Shown here in pieces: positions 4,245-11,508 of a stretch of 64,000 nt of DNA. Below the pieces are notes generated by a model, which was not told the DNA's origin, made no database searches, and was given only the letters and a program-made list of their open reading frames with translations. Position 1 is the first letter of the stretch; each line of letters begins with the position of its first letter. This DNA comes from Chthoniobacterales bacterium (GTDB taxonomy: Bacteria; Verrucomicrobiota; Verrucomicrobiia; Chthoniobacterales; DASVRZ01). A program made the position numbers and the translations under genes. The stretch is taken from contig JBDSQB010000014.1 in NCBI GenBank assembly GCA_039930045.1, positions 1-64,000 of the forward strand, given 5' to 3'.

Positions 4245-5192
4245 TTAGCTTTTTTGAGGAGCCTCGGGTGCTTCCTGGTGGCGGCTCCAGAACAGGAAGA
4301 CGGCTCCAATCAGAATCATAAAGAGGGAGTAAAACTGGCCACGGGTGAGGGGACCGAAGAGTGAGGCATCAGGCTCGCGGAATTGCTCGCCAGAGATGCG
4401 GGCGATGGCGTAGAGGATGAAAAAAAGGCCGGTGAGGACGCCGCGGCGGACTTTCATTTTTGTGCGAACCAGCCAGAGAATGGCGAAAAGGAGGAGGCCC
4501 TCCAGCACGGCCTCGTATAGCTGCGACGGGTGGCGTGGGTTTAGCACGTCGCGGAGGAGATCGCGGAGCGTTTCGCTGCGACGAGCTTCATCGATGATCG
4601 CCTGTGGCGAGGTCAGCGTGGCTGGATATTGGCTGAGGGCGCGGTCCAGCTCGGGTAGCTTCTGGTTCCAGATGATGGGATCTTGGAGCTCTGCGGGAAA
4701 TTGCATGGCCCAGGAGACGTGGGTGATCCGACCGTAGAGTTCGCCATTGATGAAGTTGGCCATGCGTCCGAAAAAAAGGCCAATCGGTGCGACGACGACC
4801 AGATTATCTCCCAGTCCGGTCCAGGAGATCTTATGTTTTCTTGCATACCAAAGTGTGTAGAAAAACAACCCCAAGATACCGCCGTGACTCGCCATGCCGC
4901 CCTGCCAGACGCGGAAAAATACGAGCGGGTCGGATAGTAATCCGGCCAGATCGTAGAAAAGAAAATAGCCCAACCGTCCACCCAGAAGCACGCCGAACAA
5001 TGCGGACCACGTGATAAAATCGCTGACCTGAGCGGGCTTTAACTCCGAGTAGCCGCGTTCAGCCAGATGGCGGTAAAGCCAGGTTCCGACCATAAAAGCG
5101 GAGACATAAGCGAGCCCGTACCAGCGGGGTCCCATGCCATTGGGGAACTGAAAAACAAAAGGGCTGAGATGGTGAACGTAATAGGCAAACAT
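4245..5192 (-). CDS. lgt: Prolipoprotein diacylglyceryl transferase
   Basis: Lgt transfers diacylglycerol from phosphatidylglycerol to the lipobox cysteine of prelipoproteins in the inner membrane. The 315-residue product has about seven hydrophobic segments. It carries the Lgt blocks WQGGMASHGGILG (catalytic His), GRMANFINGELYGR (the Lgt signature with essential Arg, Asn and Glu) and RHPSQLYEA. The start MFAYYVHHLSPF is at 5192. The gene lies 12 bases downstream of the PP2C phosphatase gene, on the same strand, and is probably the last gene of a kinase-phosphatase-lgt operon. Confidence 0.96.
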   Translation of the reverse strand: MFAYYVHHLSPFVFQFPNGMGPRWYGLAYVSAFMVGTWLYRHLAERGYSELKPAQVSDFITWSALFGVLLGGRLGYFLFYDLAGLLSDPLVFFRVWQGGMASHGGILGLFFYTLWYARKHKISWTGLGDNLVVVAPIGLFFGRMANFINGELYGRITHVSWAMQFPAELQDPIIWNQKLPELDRALSQYPATLTSPQAIIDEARRSETLRDLLRDVLNPRHPSQLYEAVLEGLLLFAILWLVRTKMKVRRGVLTGLFFILYAIARISGEQFREPDASLFGPLTRGQFYSLFMILIGAVFLFWSRHQEAPEAPQKS

Positions 5193-5204: not shown

Positions 5205-6044
5205 TTAGGCAATTTCGATAACCATGGCAGTCGTGTTGTCCTGCCCGGATTGCTCGACGGCCTGCTTGACGAGCCGTAAAGCAGGATTGAGAGCGGTCTC
5301 CTGGGCGGAGGGAAAGCGCAAAAGCTGGTGAATTCGATCGTCGTGCAGGCCTTCGTTCAGCCCGTCGCTACAGATGAGAAACATGTCGCCCGGCTCGCAG
5401 CCGACCGCGCCAATTTGCGGGTTGATGTAACGATGATTCGCACCGAGAGCCTTTTGCAAGACGTTGCGCCGTGGGTGGTTGCGCGCCTCGTGCTGGCTGA
5501 TTTTTTCGTTGCGATAGAGCCAACCGACGTAGGTGTCGTCTTCGGAAATCTGTTGAATACTGCCATTGGAATGCGGCAGATAATAGATGCGGCTGTCGCC
5601 CACGTGGCCAAAAAACATCCATCCCGGCCGGAACCAGGTAAGACTCAAAGTCGCCCCCATTCCATTGCAATCCTCATCACTGGAGCCCAGAAAGACCAGG
5701 GAGCGATGGATTTGCTCGAAGAGTTCGCCTAGCACATCGCCAAATCCGGTGCTCAGGCCGGCAGCCTCCAGGCGAAAGGATTTCGGCAGCAGCCGGGTGA
5801 TTTTTTCAACGGCAACCCGACTGGCAAATTCGCCGGCATGAGCCCCCCCCAAGCCATCGCTGACGGCAAAAGCGAAATCGCCGAGCGCCAGTGTACCGTC
5901 GCCAGTTTTGCCAAGATAATGCACTTCTTGGGCATTGAATTGGAGGCCCAGGAAGGAGTCCTCGTTGTTTTTCCGCACCCGGCCCACATCGGTATGGCCG
6001 TGCCAGTGAAGCGTCTGCGCGGCTGTGATGGGATTATTTTCCAT
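5205..6044 (-). CDS. PP2C-type Ser/Thr protein phosphatase
   Basis: This 279-residue cytoplasmic PP2C (PPM/Stp1-like) metal-dependent phosphatase has a complete active site. It shows VRKNNEDSF near the N-terminus, AVSDGLGGAHAGE for metal coordination, GHVGDSRIYY, LICSDGLNEG and the C-terminal DNTTAMVIEI. The chosen ATG at 6044 overlaps the last 11 bases of the upstream kinase-like gene, which argues for translational coupling. A longer frame to 6080 exists but lies wholly inside the neighbouring coding sequence. The phosphatase probably reverses phosphorylation by its coupled kinase (inference from gene order). Confidence 0.92.
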   Translation of the reverse strand: MENNPITAAQTLHWHGHTDVGRVRKNNEDSFLGLQFNAQEVHYLGKTGDGTLALGDFAFAVSDGLGGAHAGEFASRVAVEKITRLLPKSFRLEAAGLSTGFGDVLGELFEQIHRSLVFLGSSDEDCNGMGATLSLTWFRPGWMFFGHVGDSRIYYLPHSNGSIQQISEDDTYVGWLYRNEKISQHEARNHPRRNVLQKALGANHRYINPQIGAVGCEPGDMFLICSDGLNEGLHDDRIHQLLRFPSAQETALNPALRLVKQAVEQSGQDNTTAMVIEIA

Positions 6045-6429
6045 GGACCTCGTCGGGTGCCAGCAGGGTGGCAAATTCAAAGTCGATCACGCAGAAGCGA
6101 CCCAAAGTCGAAGAGTAGGTGATGTTCCGCGCGTCCCTGTCCTCGTGACGCACGCCATAGGGCTCCAACTCCGCGAAAATTTCCGCCGCACGGGCGTCAT
6201 CGATATGGTCCACCCGTGTGCCGCAACTGGTGGTAATGATCTTTAGCTCCTGCGGAAAAGATTCCAGCAGCCGGGGAACAAAGGGACAATGAACCTGCTC
6301 AAGGTGTTGCAGGACAGTGACTTCCGTGGCGAAACGTTTCTCCGCATCAGGTCCACGAAAGGTTTTGTGCACCCGTCCATCGTAGCCGATGCGCACCAAA
6401 GCGCGCTGGGTGTCCTTCACTTTTTCCAC
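6034..6429 (-). CDS. Miniature protein-kinase-like protein
   Basis: From a GTG at 6429 the product is only about 131 residues yet shows a near-complete set of kinase landmarks. They are a Lys in VHKTF (strand beta3), a helix-C Glu in RFATEVTVLQHL, a catalytic loop HEDRDARNI that fits the H-x-D-x4-N pattern, and IDFEFA in the position of the DFG motif. The glycine-rich loop and most of the C-lobe are missing, so it is far shorter than a canonical kinase of about 260 residues. Resemblance is to compact RIO/lipopolysaccharide-kinase-type folds. It is coupled by an 11-base overlap to a PP2C phosphatase. The start is uncertain: the frame stays open to 6612, but that region holds the glnII promoter. 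Confidence 0.6.
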   Translation of the reverse strand: MEKVKDTQRALVRIGYDGRVHKTFRGPDAEKRFATEVTVLQHLEQVHCPFVPRLLESFPQELKIITTSCGTRVDHIDDARAAEIFAELEPYGVRHEDRDARNITYSSTLGRFCVIDFEFATLLAPDEVHGK

Positions 6430-6491
6430 GTCACCATGATGCGATGTTTTCCCGACGGGGCAAGTGCGGGTTTGAGGAACCTCTGGCCATG

Positions 6492-6507
6492 TGGCATCGG
6501 AATTGCG
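6492..6507 (+). promoter_or_regulatory. Candidate sigma-54 promoter of glnII
   Basis: TGGCATCGGAATTGCG matches the -24/-12 consensus TGGCAYR-N4-TTGCW with correct GG-to-GC spacing; only the R position and the last W differ. It lies 111 bases before the glnII ATG, implying a leader of about 100 bases. Sigma-54/NtrC control of glnII is established in rhizobia; here it is inferred by eye from the motif. Confidence 0.6.
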
Positions 6508-6618
6508 TATATATGTTCTGCGTCGAAAACTGCAGTTAAGTTGCACAAGAAACAACAAACCATAGGTCAAATTGGCGCGACCTGAGTAAAAAAAGACAAA
6601 TAAGTTAACCAACCCAAT

Positions 6619-7638
6619 ATGGCAAAGTACAAACTGGAATATATCTGGCTAGACGGCTACAGCCCCGTCGCCAATCTCCGTGGCAAAACGCAAGTCAAAG
6701 AATTTGCGGACTATCCCACTCTCGAAGAGCTCCCCATGTGGGGATTTGACGGCAGCTCCACCCGTCAGGCCGAAGGCCACAGCTCCGATTGCTTGCTGAA
6801 ACCCGTCGCCTCCTACCTGGATACGACCAAGGAAAACGGCATCATCGTCATGTGCGAAGTGTTGCTCGCCGACGGCACGCCGCATCCCACCAACGACCGT
6901 GCGACCATTCTCGACGATCCAGGCACCTGGTTCGGCTTTGAGCAGGAATATTTCCTCTACAAAGACGGCCGTCCGCTCGGTTTCCCGAAAGAAGGTTATC
7001 CCGCTCCGCAGGGCAAATATTACACCGGCGTCGGCTACGATGCCGTGGGTGATATCGCCCGCGAAATCGTCGATACCCATCTCGATCTCTGTCTCGACGC
7101 TGGCATTAACCACGAAGGCATCAATGCCGAAGTGGCCAAGGGCCAGTGGGAATTCCAGATCTTCGGCAAAGGCTCCAAGAAAGCCGCTGACGACGTCTGG
7201 GTGGCACGTTATCTCCTTGAGCGCCTCTGCGAAGGCTATGGCGTCGATGTGAACTACCATTGCAAACCACTCGGCATCGATCTCGACTGGAACGGCTCGG
7301 GCATGCACTCCAACTTCTCCACTGAATACATGCGCGAAGTCGGCGGCAAACCTTACTTCGAGTCCCTCATGGCGGCATTCGACAAATACAAAAACGAGCA
7401 TATCGCCGTTTACGGACCAGACAATCACCTGCGCCTCACTGGTCTGCACGAGACGCAGTCCATCGATAAATTCAACTACGGCATCGCCAACCGCGGCGCC
7501 TCGATCCGTGTCCCACACAGCTTCGTCAACGCCGGCTACAAGGGCTACCTCGAAGATCGTCGTCCGAACTCCCAAGGCAATCCCTACAAAATCGCCAGCC
7601 GCATTTTGCAGACGATCCAGACCGTTCCGACTCCGTAA
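6619..7638 (+). CDS. glnII: Glutamine synthetase type II (eukaryote-like GSII)
   Basis: GSII condenses glutamate and ammonia to glutamine at the expense of ATP. The length, 339 residues, is that of the short eukaryote-type GSII, not the roughly 470-residue GSI. Diagnostic segments are YIWLDGYSP at the N-terminus, MWGFDGSSTRQAEG, WFGFEQEYFLY, GINAEVAKGQWEFQI, the ATP-site WNGSGMHSNFST and the C-terminal HETQSIDKFNYG with NRGASIRVP. GSII enzymes lack the adenylylation loop of GSI, so control is expected at transcription, which fits the sigma-54-like promoter upstream. The gene is followed by a strong terminator and is convergent with xth. Confidence 0.96.
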   Translation: MAKYKLEYIWLDGYSPVANLRGKTQVKEFADYPTLEELPMWGFDGSSTRQAEGHSSDCLLKPVASYLDTTKENGIIVMCEVLLADGTPHPTNDRATILDDPGTWFGFEQEYFLYKDGRPLGFPKEGYPAPQGKYYTGVGYDAVGDIAREIVDTHLDLCLDAGINHEGINAEVAKGQWEFQIFGKGSKKAADDVWVARYLLERLCEGYGVDVNYHCKPLGIDLDWNGSGMHSNFSTEYMREVGGKPYFESLMAAFDKYKNEHIAVYGPDNHLRLTGLHETQSIDKFNYGIANRGASIRVPHSFVNAGYKGYLEDRRPNSQGNPYKIASRILQTIQTVPTP

Positions 7639-8582: not shown

Positions 8583-9191
8583 TTAACGGTGCCGTGGCCC
8601 ACGGGCTCCACCACCAGGAGGAGGCCCGGCTGGACCCGCGTCATCACCACCATCGGGCGGCATTGGTGGGCGCGGTGGACGGGGCGGGCGGATTTCATCC
8701 TCGGTCAACTGGCCGTCCTTGTTCTTGTCGAGCGTCTTGAGACTGTCGGGAGCCTGAGTGATTTCCTCGGCGGAAATCTTGTGATCATGATTTTTGTCGA
8801 GCGCCTGGATCAACGGCGGCGGGGGCGGACGATGACCGGAATGTTCACGGCGCGGCGGACGAGTTTCATTCGAATCACCCTCCGGTGGAGTGGGCGGCTT
8901 GGGATGAAGTTCGTCCTCAGTCAACGTGCCATCTTTATTGAGGTCGAGCGTGCGCAATGCATCGGCTGCGCCCGCGATTTCCTCGGCAGAAATGACGCCG
9001 TCCGCATTCGCATCGAGCGCACGGATGAGGGGTGGCGCAGGTGGACGATCCGGCGGCTGCTCGTCCTCACCGGCAGGCGCAGGCGATTGCGTGGGAGTGG
9101 CTGGGGTGGACTTGGGTTCGGCTGGCATCTGGGCCGACGCAGCGGTGCAGAGGGCCAGCAGAGTTAGGAGTAACGGTTTATGTATTTTCAT
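8583..9191 (-). CDS. Exported EF-hand calcium-binding protein
   Basis: The 202-residue protein has a signal peptide (MKIHKPLLLTLLALCTAASA, cleavage near AQM) and four canonical 12-residue EF-hand loops arranged as two pairs: DANADGVISAEE, DLNKDGTLTEDE, DKNHDHKISAEE and DKNKDGQLTEDE. The pairs are separated by Pro-rich linkers, and the tail is Gly/Pro-rich. It is expected to be periplasmic. The gene is divergent from an OmpR-type regulator and its kinase, across a 161-base region carrying direct repeats. By analogy with CpxP or with calcium-responsive EF-hand systems it may be a target or modulator of that pair (inference). Confidence 0.88.
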   Translation of the reverse strand: MKIHKPLLLTLLALCTAASAQMPAEPKSTPATPTQSPAPAGEDEQPPDRPPAPPLIRALDANADGVISAEEIAGAADALRTLDLNKDGTLTEDELHPKPPTPPEGDSNETRPPRREHSGHRPPPPPLIQALDKNHDHKISAEEITQAPDSLKTLDKNKDGQLTEDEIRPPRPPRPPMPPDGGDDAGPAGPPPGGGARGPRHR

Positions 9192-9352: not shown

Positions 9353-10066
9353 ATGGCCACGCAGATTCTATTGATCGACGACGACCGCAAGCTTTGCAGG
9401 CTGGTCGGCGAATATCTCGGGCCGCTCGGCTACGAAGTCGTGTCGGTCCATAGCGGCCCGGAGGGAGCCGAACGCGCGGTCAGCGGCGCGTGGGAGGCGA
9501 TCATTCTCGATGTCATGCTGCCCGGTTGCGACGGATTCGAGGTGCTCAAGCGCATTCGCCAAAGCTCCGATGTTCCCGTGCTCATGCTCACGGCGCGCGG
9601 TGAGGAGACGGATCGAATCGTCGGTTTAGAGATCGGAGCGGACGATTATTTGCCCAAGACTTTTTCCACTCGCGAACTGCTCGCGAGGCTCCGAGCCGTC
9701 ACGCGCCGGGCGGTTCACCGGGAGTCCGGATCGCCGGAAAAAGATCTGGAAAACGAGATTGTCCTCGGCCCGCTGCGAGTGAAACCCGACTCCCACTCCG
9801 CCTCGCTCGACAACCAGCCGCTCAGCCTCACCCCGGTGGAATTTGGCCTGCTCGTCTCACTGGCCAGGGCGGCGGGCCGGGTGAAAACCCGCGAGCGCCT
9901 TCTCGAAGAAATCCGCGAGCGCGACTTCGATGTCTTCGACCGCTCCATTGACGTCCACATTTCCGCGCTCCGCAAAAAACTCGGCGACGACCCGAAAAAC
10001 CCACGCTTCATCCGCACCATTCGCGCCGCCGGCTATCTGATGAGCGACGGCGCCACAGTCGTATGA
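9353..10066 (+). CDS. OmpR/CpxR-family response regulator
   Basis: This 237-residue DNA-binding regulator has a receiver domain at residues about 4-118, with acidic pocket IDDD, phosphoacceptor Asp in IILDVMLPG, switch Thr in MLTARG and Lys in YLPKTF. A winged-helix output domain follows at about 140-232 (LTPVEFGLLVSLARAAGRVKTRERLLEEI, DRSIDVHISALRKKL and the wing IRTIRAAGYL). The ATG of the kinase gene overlaps its stop by four bases, so the two are co-translated. It is divergent from the EF-hand gene. The domain set most resembles CpxR. Confidence 0.94.
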   Translation: MATQILLIDDDRKLCRLVGEYLGPLGYEVVSVHSGPEGAERAVSGAWEAIILDVMLPGCDGFEVLKRIRQSSDVPVLMLTARGEETDRIVGLEIGADDYLPKTFSTRELLARLRAVTRRAVHRESGSPEKDLENEIVLGPLRVKPDSHSASLDNQPLSLTPVEFGLLVSLARAAGRVKTRERLLEEIRERDFDVFDRSIDVHISALRKKLGDDPKNPRFIRTIRAAGYLMSDGATVV

Positions 10067-11508
10067 AACTCCCGCTGTCGCTTCGCATTCTGGGCTGCTT
10101 CTTCCTGAATCTGCTCCTGCTCGGACTCGCCTTTTGGGCGTTTTTCCGGTTCCAGTTGCACTTCGGTCTGGACTCCCTCTTCGCCGCGCAATCCATGGAC
10201 CGGGTCGTCGCCGTCCAGCGGCTGGTGGAGGACGAATTGCAAACCACACCGCGCGAAAATTGGGACGCCATCCTGAAACGCTTCGAGTCTGCCTACGGCA
10301 TCCAGTTTGCCCTCTTCGATTCCGCTCAAACTCAACTCGCCGGTAGTCCCCTCGCACTCCCTCGGGAACTGCGCGAACGCCTCCCGCCCGCACCCCGGCA
10401 ACGAGACCGCCCGCCGCCGCCACGGGAGTTCGAGCCGGATCGCCCGATGCCGGATCGGCCTCCGCTCGCCGGACCGCCCATGGGACCGCGCCCCGAGGAA
10501 CGTCCGCCGCAGTTGCTTCACGCCGACGCGCAATATTGGATTTCGATGCATCTCCGCCCGCACCCGTCGGCGCGACCGGGGCCGTTGCTCCTCGTTCTGG
10601 TTTCCAAAAACCTTACCGCTGGCGGGCTCATCTTCGACCCGAAACCATGGCTTATCGCCGCCCTCGGCGTGCTCGGGCTCTCGGTTTTATTCTGGCTGCC
10701 GCTGGTTCGTGGAATGACTCAGGCCATTTCCGAAATGACCCGGGCCACCGGCCAGATCGCGGCGGGCCATTTCGAGATTCACGCCCCGGAGAATCGCAGC
10801 GACGAACTCGGTACCCTCGGCGGCTCGATCAACCGCATGGCCAGCCGCCTTTCGGCCTTCATCCTGGGGCAAAAGCGTTTCCTCGGCGACACCGCGCACG
10901 AACTCGTTTCGCCGCTCGCCCGCATGGAAATGGGACTCAGCATTTTGCAAAGCCGCGCCTCCGAGAAAGACCGCGCCCACCTCAACGACGTCCACGAGGA
11001 GGTGCGCCTGATGTCCGGGTTGGTGAATGAATTGCTCTCCTTTTCCAAGGCGTCGCTCGGCCTCTCGCCGCAACACCTGCAAGCCATCCCGCTCGCCGAG
11101 CTGATCGATAAAACCCTCAAACGCGAGGCTGCAGGCGACGTCACACGGGCTCTTGCCGACGGGCTGAAAGTCCTTGGCGACTTCGAGCTTTTGCAGCGCG
11201 CCCTCGGCAACGTCGTCCGCAACTCTCAGCGCTACGCGGGAGACGCCAGCATTTCCGCCACTCGCTCGGGAAACGAAGTCATCCTCACCGTCTCCGACAA
11301 CGGCCCCGGCATCCCAGAATCGGCTCTCACTCAAATCTTCGACCCCTTTTTCCGCGTCGATCTCTCCCGCGACCGCGCCACTGGCGGTACTGGACTCGGG
11401 CTCGCGATCACGAAAAGCTGCGTCGAAGCCTGTGGCGGCAAAGTCACCTGCCGCAACCGCACGCCGCACGGCCTCGAGATGCGTTTCGTTCTCCAGGCGG
11501 CCGACTGA
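10063..11508 (+). CDS. Membrane sensor histidine kinase (CpxA-like)
   Basis: The 481-residue partner of the preceding regulator has a first membrane segment at about residues 5-27. A periplasmic domain follows, containing a long Pro/Arg-rich stretch (PPPPREFEPDRPMPDRPP) near residues 110-150. The second membrane segment is near 195-216 (LIAALGVLGLSVLFWLPL), then come HAMP, the H-box DTAHELVSPLARM, the N-box LGNVVRNSQRYAG, the G1 box DNGPGIPE and the G2 box TGLGLAITKS. The Pro-rich sensor resembles the Pro-rich linkers of the divergent EF-hand protein. It ends 52 bases before alaS. Confidence 0.94.
   Translation: MKLPLSLRILGCFFLNLLLLGLAFWAFFRFQLHFGLDSLFAAQSMDRVVAVQRLVEDELQTTPRENWDAILKRFESAYGIQFALFDSAQTQLAGSPLALPRELRERLPPAPRQRDRPPPPREFEPDRPMPDRPPLAGPPMGPRPEERPPQLLHADAQYWISMHLRPHPSARPGPLLLVLVSKNLTAGGLIFDPKPWLIAALGVLGLSVLFWLPLVRGMTQAISEMTRATGQIAAGHFEIHAPENRSDELGTLGGSINRMASRLSAFILGQKRFLGDTAHELVSPLARMEMGLSILQSRASEKDRAHLNDVHEEVRLMSGLVNELLSFSKASLGLSPQHLQAIPLAELIDKTLKREAAGDVTRALADGLKVLGDFELLQRALGNVVRNSQRYAGDASISATRSGNEVILTVSDNGPGIPESALTQIFDPFFRVDLSRDRATGGTGLGLAITKSCVEACGGKVTCRNRTPHGLEMRFVLQAAD

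Follow-up and report, generated by a model that had tools for sequence, protein, structure and literature searches.

The locus

The window, i.e. the whole stretch of 64,000 nucleotides from a Chthoniobacterales bacterium that was analysed here, contains a short open reading frame (ORF) encoding a minimal kinase-like protein, hereafter called the mini-kinase. This gene lies between a phosphatase gene and a divergently oriented glutamine synthetase (GS) gene, and the features of the region are the following:

4245-5192, minus strand: Lgt, prolipoprotein diacylglyceryl transferase, adjacent here but outside the conserved module
5205-6044, minus strand: PP2C-type protein phosphatase of 279 residues (PF13672, E = 2e-16; Stp1/IreP-like)
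6034-6429, minus strand: mini-kinase, a minimal kinase of 131 residues, from the GTG at 6429 to the stop at 6034
6430-6618: divergent promoter region of 189 bp between the mini-kinase and the type II glutamine synthetase (GSII) genes
6492-6506, plus strand: promoter-like site of the sigma-54 (-24/-12) type, oriented toward GSII, TGGCATCGGAATTGC
6619-7638, plus strand: GSII (glnII-like) of 339 residues, divergent from the mini-kinase

The first-pass annotation had described a protein of about 130 residues with a beta3 Lys, a helix-C Glu, an HxDxxxxN loop and an IDFE motif. All of these are present in the minus-strand product: K22 (beta3), E36 (alpha-C), HEDRDARN at positions 95-102, which contains H95-x-D97-x4-N102, and IDFE at 115-118 (I115-D116-F117-E118). 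The overlap of 11 bases with the PP2C gene that it had given is exact, the mini-kinase stop and the PP2C ATG sharing positions 6034-6044. The GTG start at 6429 is supported by the alignment of distinct homologues, 120 out of 129 of which have a Met in the column of position 1; the chosen start is an ATG in 123 of the 129.

The product of 6619-7638 is a type II enzyme: it has about 340 residues and both GS domains, and it is nearest to bacterial and eukaryotic GSII. It matches PF00120 and PF03951, and its closest solved structure is 4bax, the Streptomyces GSII. With 364.9 bits against the GlnII model, under the cut-off of 500, it represents an outlying branch. A second gene of the glutamine synthetase family in the window's genome (L236; G000:C18, approximately 83916-84949) is split over two overlapping frames and is therefore broken or misassembled.

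An Lgt gene downstream had also been pointed out, and it is indeed there in the window. However, among 136 mini-kinase loci, Lgt was found only in the window's own; many of these loci have a flank of 1.5 kb only, but those with 6 kb of flank also lack it. Lgt was therefore rejected as a member of the module. On the other side, positions 8583-9191 of the window encode a secreted-looking protein of 202 residues, a Pro-rich sequence in which EF-hand-like motifs recur, and its gene adjoins a two-component pair (9353-11508).

Distribution and conservation of the mini-kinase

Relatives of the mini-kinase were identified in 28 of the 57 genomes of the window's order and in 31 of the 195 genomes of its phylum. 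Among named genomes, 173 candidate stretches encode such a relative, from which 80 loci were retained. The holders are mostly Verrucomicrobiota (Opitutae, Spartobacteria, Verrucomicrobiales, Limisphaerales), with some Planctomycetota (Pirellulaceae); in a sample of 199 Planctomycetota genomes, the mini-kinase is rare outside the Pirellulaceae.

Unfused mini-kinases are 125-171 residues long, and the homologues share 48-70% identity (alignment A1). In the 129 distinct homologues, K22, E36, H95, D97, R101, N102, D116 and E118 are invariant. Beside these eight, the invariant or near-invariant positions comprise K5, T7, R9, D17, G18, A29, R32, C48, P52, C69, G70, T104, Y105, G110, C113 and F117. 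None of the homologues, which come from two phyla, has lost the Lys, Asp, Asn or Asp on which the first-pass annotation relied, and every catalytic residue is kept.

The GTG start and the lack of a Pfam match above cut-off for the window protein could suggest that the ORF is an annotation artefact, either a spurious reading frame or what is left of a degenerate kinase. Given the many full-length homologues of similar size at this level of identity, with their invariant motifs and conserved gene order, such an artefact is hardly conceivable: conservation rules out both the chance ORF and the decayed fragment, and the occurrence of relatives in the order, in the phylum and in the named genomes by itself means that the ORF is not a chance one.

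Three cysteines are almost invariant (C48, C69 and C113, in 129, 127 and 127 of the 129 sequences, respectively). One of them stands right after strand 5, in the hinge region, and another three residues ahead of DFE; a redox, metal or structural role is possible. The most diverged mini-kinase, on a long branch (L173:6791-7183, genome G230), has no adjacent PP2C gene and its GSII gene is unlinked.

Predicted fold and family membership

An AlphaFold2 model of the mini-kinase was built with 109 alignment rows (pLDDT 93.9, pTM 0.87). It displays strands at 3-6, 10-14 and 19-24, helix C at 29-45, strands at 54-58 and 63-67 and helix E at 78-86, followed by the catalytic and metal loops and, soon past DFE, by the end of the chain, which stops 13 residues beyond this motif. 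The elements beta1-5, alpha-C, alpha-E and the two loops of the kinase fold are all present in the model. When it was compared with the PDB using Foldseek, kinases came on top, ArkI first, then Bud32, Rio2, PRPK, CK2 and Src-family kinases. The structure predicted for the 131-residue product is thus a kinase fold, and the idea of a full catalytic set in about half the length of a normal kinase agrees with both the conserved residues and this fold. From the model, the mini-kinase is predicted to consist of the N-lobe, alpha-E and the catalytic and metal loops. The glycine-rich loop is absent, with KDTxRA (near-invariant K5, T7 and R9) in its place, and the C-lobe substrate platform (alpha-F to alpha-I) is missing.

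We then compared the mini-kinase with known families. All 129 sequences have the characteristic residues of the protein-kinase-like superfamily, namely the Lys of beta3, the Glu of alpha-C, the catalytic Asp, the Asn and the Asp of DFx. Of the Hanks-type (ePK) features, a PF00069 match, the glycine-rich loop, alpha-F to alpha-I and the activation segment are lacking; the window protein has no match to PF00069, and this family is absent from the 25 listed for the 109 homologues. The best Pfam matches of the family are APH, Kdo and choline kinase, and APH matches all 109 members at E < 1 (best 2.4e-9). The window mini-kinase itself falls below every Pfam cut-off, with sub-threshold scores of 15.7 bits against PF01636 (APH; cut-off 23.2) and 13.6 bits against PF06293 (Kdo-WaaP; cut-off 21.3), and its 12.9 bits against the Bud32 model TIGR03724 compare with an equivalog cut-off of 125. 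A PDB sequence search with the single protein gave no useful match. The mini-kinase profile found kinase catalytic loops in the PDB, with E values of 0.02-0.3 only, and ArkI was not among its 60 best sequence matches. The HGQ triplet and the YKR helix of the ArkI/AQ578 family (motifs according to PMC9095486) are not found in the mini-kinase either. With a replaced glycine-rich loop, no helices F to I and scores below the cut-offs, the mini-kinase thus has a kinase fold but belongs to none of the named families with which it was compared.

The PP2C partner

The window phosphatase belongs to the PP2C class by its profile (60.6 bits against PF13672) and its metal-binding Asp residues, and the metal ligands D29, D63, G64, D227 and D269 are invariant in 126 sequences. 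A PP2C gene lies directly downstream of the mini-kinase gene in 111 of the 129 distinct loci, with an estimated gap of -89 to +146 bases, often -4 or -8, and is fused to it in 17; an adjacent PP2C is missing in a single locus (L136, genome G230). The dedicated phosphatase that the first-pass annotation had attributed to the kinase is thus found almost throughout the family.

Complete fusions have about 400-440 residues, with a disordered linker of 11 residues at 128-138. The AlphaFold model of a fusion has a pTM of 0.68, and with such a linker a fixed orientation of the kinase and PP2C parts is unsupported. On the kinase tree, the fused state requires at least three changes; despite this minimum, a single origin of the fusion is possible.

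Association with type II glutamine synthetase

Clustering of the neighbour genes placed a glutamine synthetase beside nearly every mini-kinase. GSII, which had been overlooked in the first-pass annotation, is the conserved partner of the mini-kinase. It is encoded by the next gene in 112 of the 129 loci (104 divergent, 8 tandem); in the tandem loci, i.e. seven Planctomycetota fusions and one Verrucomicrobiota locus, GSII is directly upstream on the same strand. GSII was not seen in 14 loci, most with a flank of at most 1.5 kb, and is off the contig in three. For these 14 loci, GSII is found elsewhere in the genomes checked, with the exception of G250. The search for homologues and their gene neighbourhoods, recommended as a check of the initial proposal, has thus found a conserved family with its PP2C pairing and revealed the link to GSII.

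We investigated the co-occurrence of the mini-kinase with the linked GSII clade. The lists of genomes with GSII and with the mini-kinase are identical in the order (28/28) and in the phylum sample (31/31). Among 246 Verrucomicrobiota genomes, a mini-kinase is present if and only if the linked GSII clade, counted at ≥71% identity, is present (57/57, no exception; Fisher P = 2e-57, a value that ignores phylogeny and shared ancestry). Among 149 Pirellulaceae, 22 have the mini-kinase, 23 the linked GSII and 21 both (Fisher P = 3e-22, phylogeny being ignored here too); the exceptions are G519, with the kinase only, and G474 and G590, with only a GSII that lies near a contig end. In two kinase-bearing genomes, the Pirellulaceae G519 and the MAG G250, no GSII match was found.

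Within families f3, f5, f7, f15, f17 and f21, both genes vary in their presence and yet agree. Moreover, in eight genomes (G005, G010, G011, G014, G054, G169, G183 and G230) the two genes are unlinked and lie on separate contigs, each with flanking sequence on either side. Agreement inside variable families and in genomes without linkage indicates that the match is not merely that of a shared cassette. The kinase and GSII trees are correlated (0.53; Mantel P = 0.001), a correlation that could also come from a shared species history. Co-occurrence links the mini-kinase to GSII; it is silent on which protein is the substrate.

A more distant GSII clade (54-62% identical) was also found. Six Verrucomicrobiota genomes carry such a GSII and no mini-kinase, and in all six a full-length Hanks-type kinase is encoded beside it (L167-L172; five recognized by PF00069 and the sixth by similarity). 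The same arrangement was observed in 4 of 8 Pirellulaceae examined (L227, L228, L232, L233), and many Pirellulaceae have a distant GSII without a mini-kinase. Together with the mini-kinase link, this means that kinases near GSII recur in these phyla. A search for a phosphosite among clade-specific Ser, Thr and Tyr residues of GSII yielded T235, Y246 and Y310, which the linked clade conserves and the distant clade does not; two of these, T235 and Y310, occur in the Streptomyces, yeast and fly enzymes as well. Residue 227, in the DWNGSGMH loop, is a Ser in 145 out of 145 GSII from these phyla and an Ala in the Streptomyces, yeast and fly enzymes. From sequence comparison, S227 may serve as a lead, as a candidate phosphosite.

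Nitrogen-control genes and GSII promoters

Among the 57 relatives of the order, strong GSI matches (E < 1e-130, about 460-505 residues) and proteins of GSIII size (about 560-830 residues) occur only in kinase-less genomes, and 17 of the 28 mini-kinase genomes have no PF00120 match other than GSII. GlnE (E < 1e-27) was detected in 14 genomes of the order, only one of which (G010) has the mini-kinase (1/28 vs. 13/29 for the other genomes; P = 4e-4). The window's genome encodes GlnD, so PII is probably modified there without GlnE. A minority of loci (L058, L107 and others) have PII and AmtB genes at most about 6 kb away from the mini-kinase.

We screened the kinase/GSII intergenic regions for sigma-54-type sites, defined as GG-N10-GC agreeing with the consensus at 8 or more of its 10 letters. 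A site facing GSII is present in 93 of 101 regions; mononucleotide shuffles contained one in about 3% of cases, and a site toward the kinase was seen in 6 of 101 regions. Judging from these sites, GSII is probably transcribed from a sigma-54 promoter. The glnII gene of Sinorhizobium is among the targets of NtrC/RpoN (PMC5127829).

Proposed role and alternative explanations

We consider it rather probable that the mini-kinase and the PP2C form a dedicated pair controlling GSII in Verrucomicrobiota and Pirellulaceae, most likely by reversible phosphorylation of GSII. The mini-kinase would add a phosphate to GSII and the PP2C would remove it; phosphorylation would shut down glutamine synthesis under an ample nitrogen supply, and synthesis would restart when nitrogen is low. 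This switch would serve GSII as GlnE adenylylation serves GSI, in the place of GlnE, and GSII would also be under sigma-54 transcriptional control. The system would probably constitute an on/off switch of nitrogen assimilation that had not been described before. We infer the phosphotransfer activity, the role of GSII as direct substrate, the existence of a site and inactivation by the phosphate; the approximately 1:1 pairing of kinase and phosphatase, the tracking of GSII even when unlinked and the replacement of GlnE make direct phosphorylation of GSII the simplest form of the proposal. Because the mini-kinase has neither a glycine-rich loop nor a substrate platform, GSII or the PP2C may complete its active site, or the substrate may be another one. 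A more complete scenario, in which an active protein kinase family among the smallest, with about 130 residues and devoid of glycine-rich loop and substrate-binding C-lobe, forms with its target GSII and a PP2C a switch by reversible phosphorylation that replaced GlnE in much of Verrucomicrobiota and some Pirellulaceae, seems to us to have an even chance of being correct.

The pair might influence GSII by an indirect route, the mini-kinase phosphorylating a different protein of nitrogen control such as PII or NtrC. Such an action would be in line with the PP2C PphA, which acts on PII in Synechocystis without an identified kinase (PMC4285133), and with the GlnD gene of the window's genome, the PII and AmtB genes near some kinase loci and the sigma-54-like promoters of GSII. 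We nevertheless judge it unlikely: weak GlnE-family matches of GlnD size also occur in many kinase-less genomes, so that PII signalling is probably not confined to genomes with the kinase, whereas the mini-kinase tracks GSII exactly in the Verrucomicrobiota genomes. In addition, the PII of one locus has a Tyr51-type T-loop, fit for uridylylation.

Two other explanations concern the activity of the mini-kinase itself, and both appear distinctly improbable. It could phosphorylate small molecules, in the manner of APH and choline kinases, or RNA, in the manner of ArkI, with a separate role for the PP2C; its best Pfam matches and the first rank among PDB folds of ArkI, an RNA kinase that shares the DFE motif, would suggest this. 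However, the HGQ and the C-terminal YKR helix of ArkI (PMC9095486) are opposed here to an invariant HxD and no such helix, and ArkI is outside the 60 best sequence matches; the co-occurrence with GSII and the fusion to PP2C would also be left unexplained. Alternatively, it could be a pseudokinase, i.e. a nucleotide-binding or scaffold subunit that regulates PP2C or GSII but transfers no phosphate. The fused forms would be in keeping with a regulatory domain attached to the PP2C, and the missing glycine-rich loop and very small C-lobe also fit, but pseudokinases usually lose some catalytic residues, whereas all five are invariant in the 129 sequences from two phyla.

If direct control of GSII is true, a dedicated kinase/phosphatase for this enzyme would be a new answer to GS control in two large phyla, and the mini-kinase would show how little of the kinase fold phosphotransfer needs. 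Three purified proteins would suffice to test this narrow prediction. In the open-licence literature, we found no prior description of the mini-kinase family, nor of any kinase/phosphatase pair for a bacterial GSII.

Comparison with known systems

Control of GSI by GlnE is textbook enzyme regulation, and phosphorylation of plant GS is known. The role proposed here resembles that of GlnE in the reversible covalent control of a GS and in the presence of both activities in one polypeptide, as in the kinase-PP2C fusions, but GlnE has an unrelated fold and chemistry and its target is GSI. Bacterial GSII has been described as not adenylylated, the Streptomyces enzyme among them (PMC10704036), and as mainly controlled at the level of transcription (PMC10704036, PMC5127829).

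Among the fold matches, ArkI, an archaeal RNA kinase of the AQ578 family (PDB 8yv4, 8yv5), ranks first, with a TMq of 0.69 and 25% identity between the structurally aligned residues. Both proteins are short kinases with DFE replacing DFG. ArkI has HGQ instead of HxD and a C-terminal helix with a conserved YKR, and phosphorylates the 2'-OH of tRNA U47 (PMC9095486), whereas the mini-kinase has an invariant HxD, ends just past DFE and tracks GSII. The atypical kinases Bud32/PRPK and Rio2 also have a compact C-lobe and are good fold matches, with a weak match of the Bud32 profile to the mini-kinase. However, they have about 190-270 residues in the matched models or chains and their partners are KEOPS and the ribosome, while the mini-kinase is far under the family cut-offs.

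In cyanobacteria, PphA is a PP2C phosphatase that dephosphorylates PII, the kinase of which was still unidentified in 2015 (PMC4285133). PphA thus shares with the present system the involvement of a PP2C in nitrogen control; it differs by its target, PII, and by the lack of an identified kinase, whereas here the mini-kinase is adjacent or fused to the PP2C and the linked enzyme is GSII. AceK, the isocitrate dehydrogenase kinase/phosphatase, is one larger kinase-fold protein that carries out both reactions. It resembles the proposed system as a dedicated kinase/phosphatase for one metabolic enzyme, but it is a single protein, whereas here the two reactions would be divided between the mini-kinase and the PP2C.
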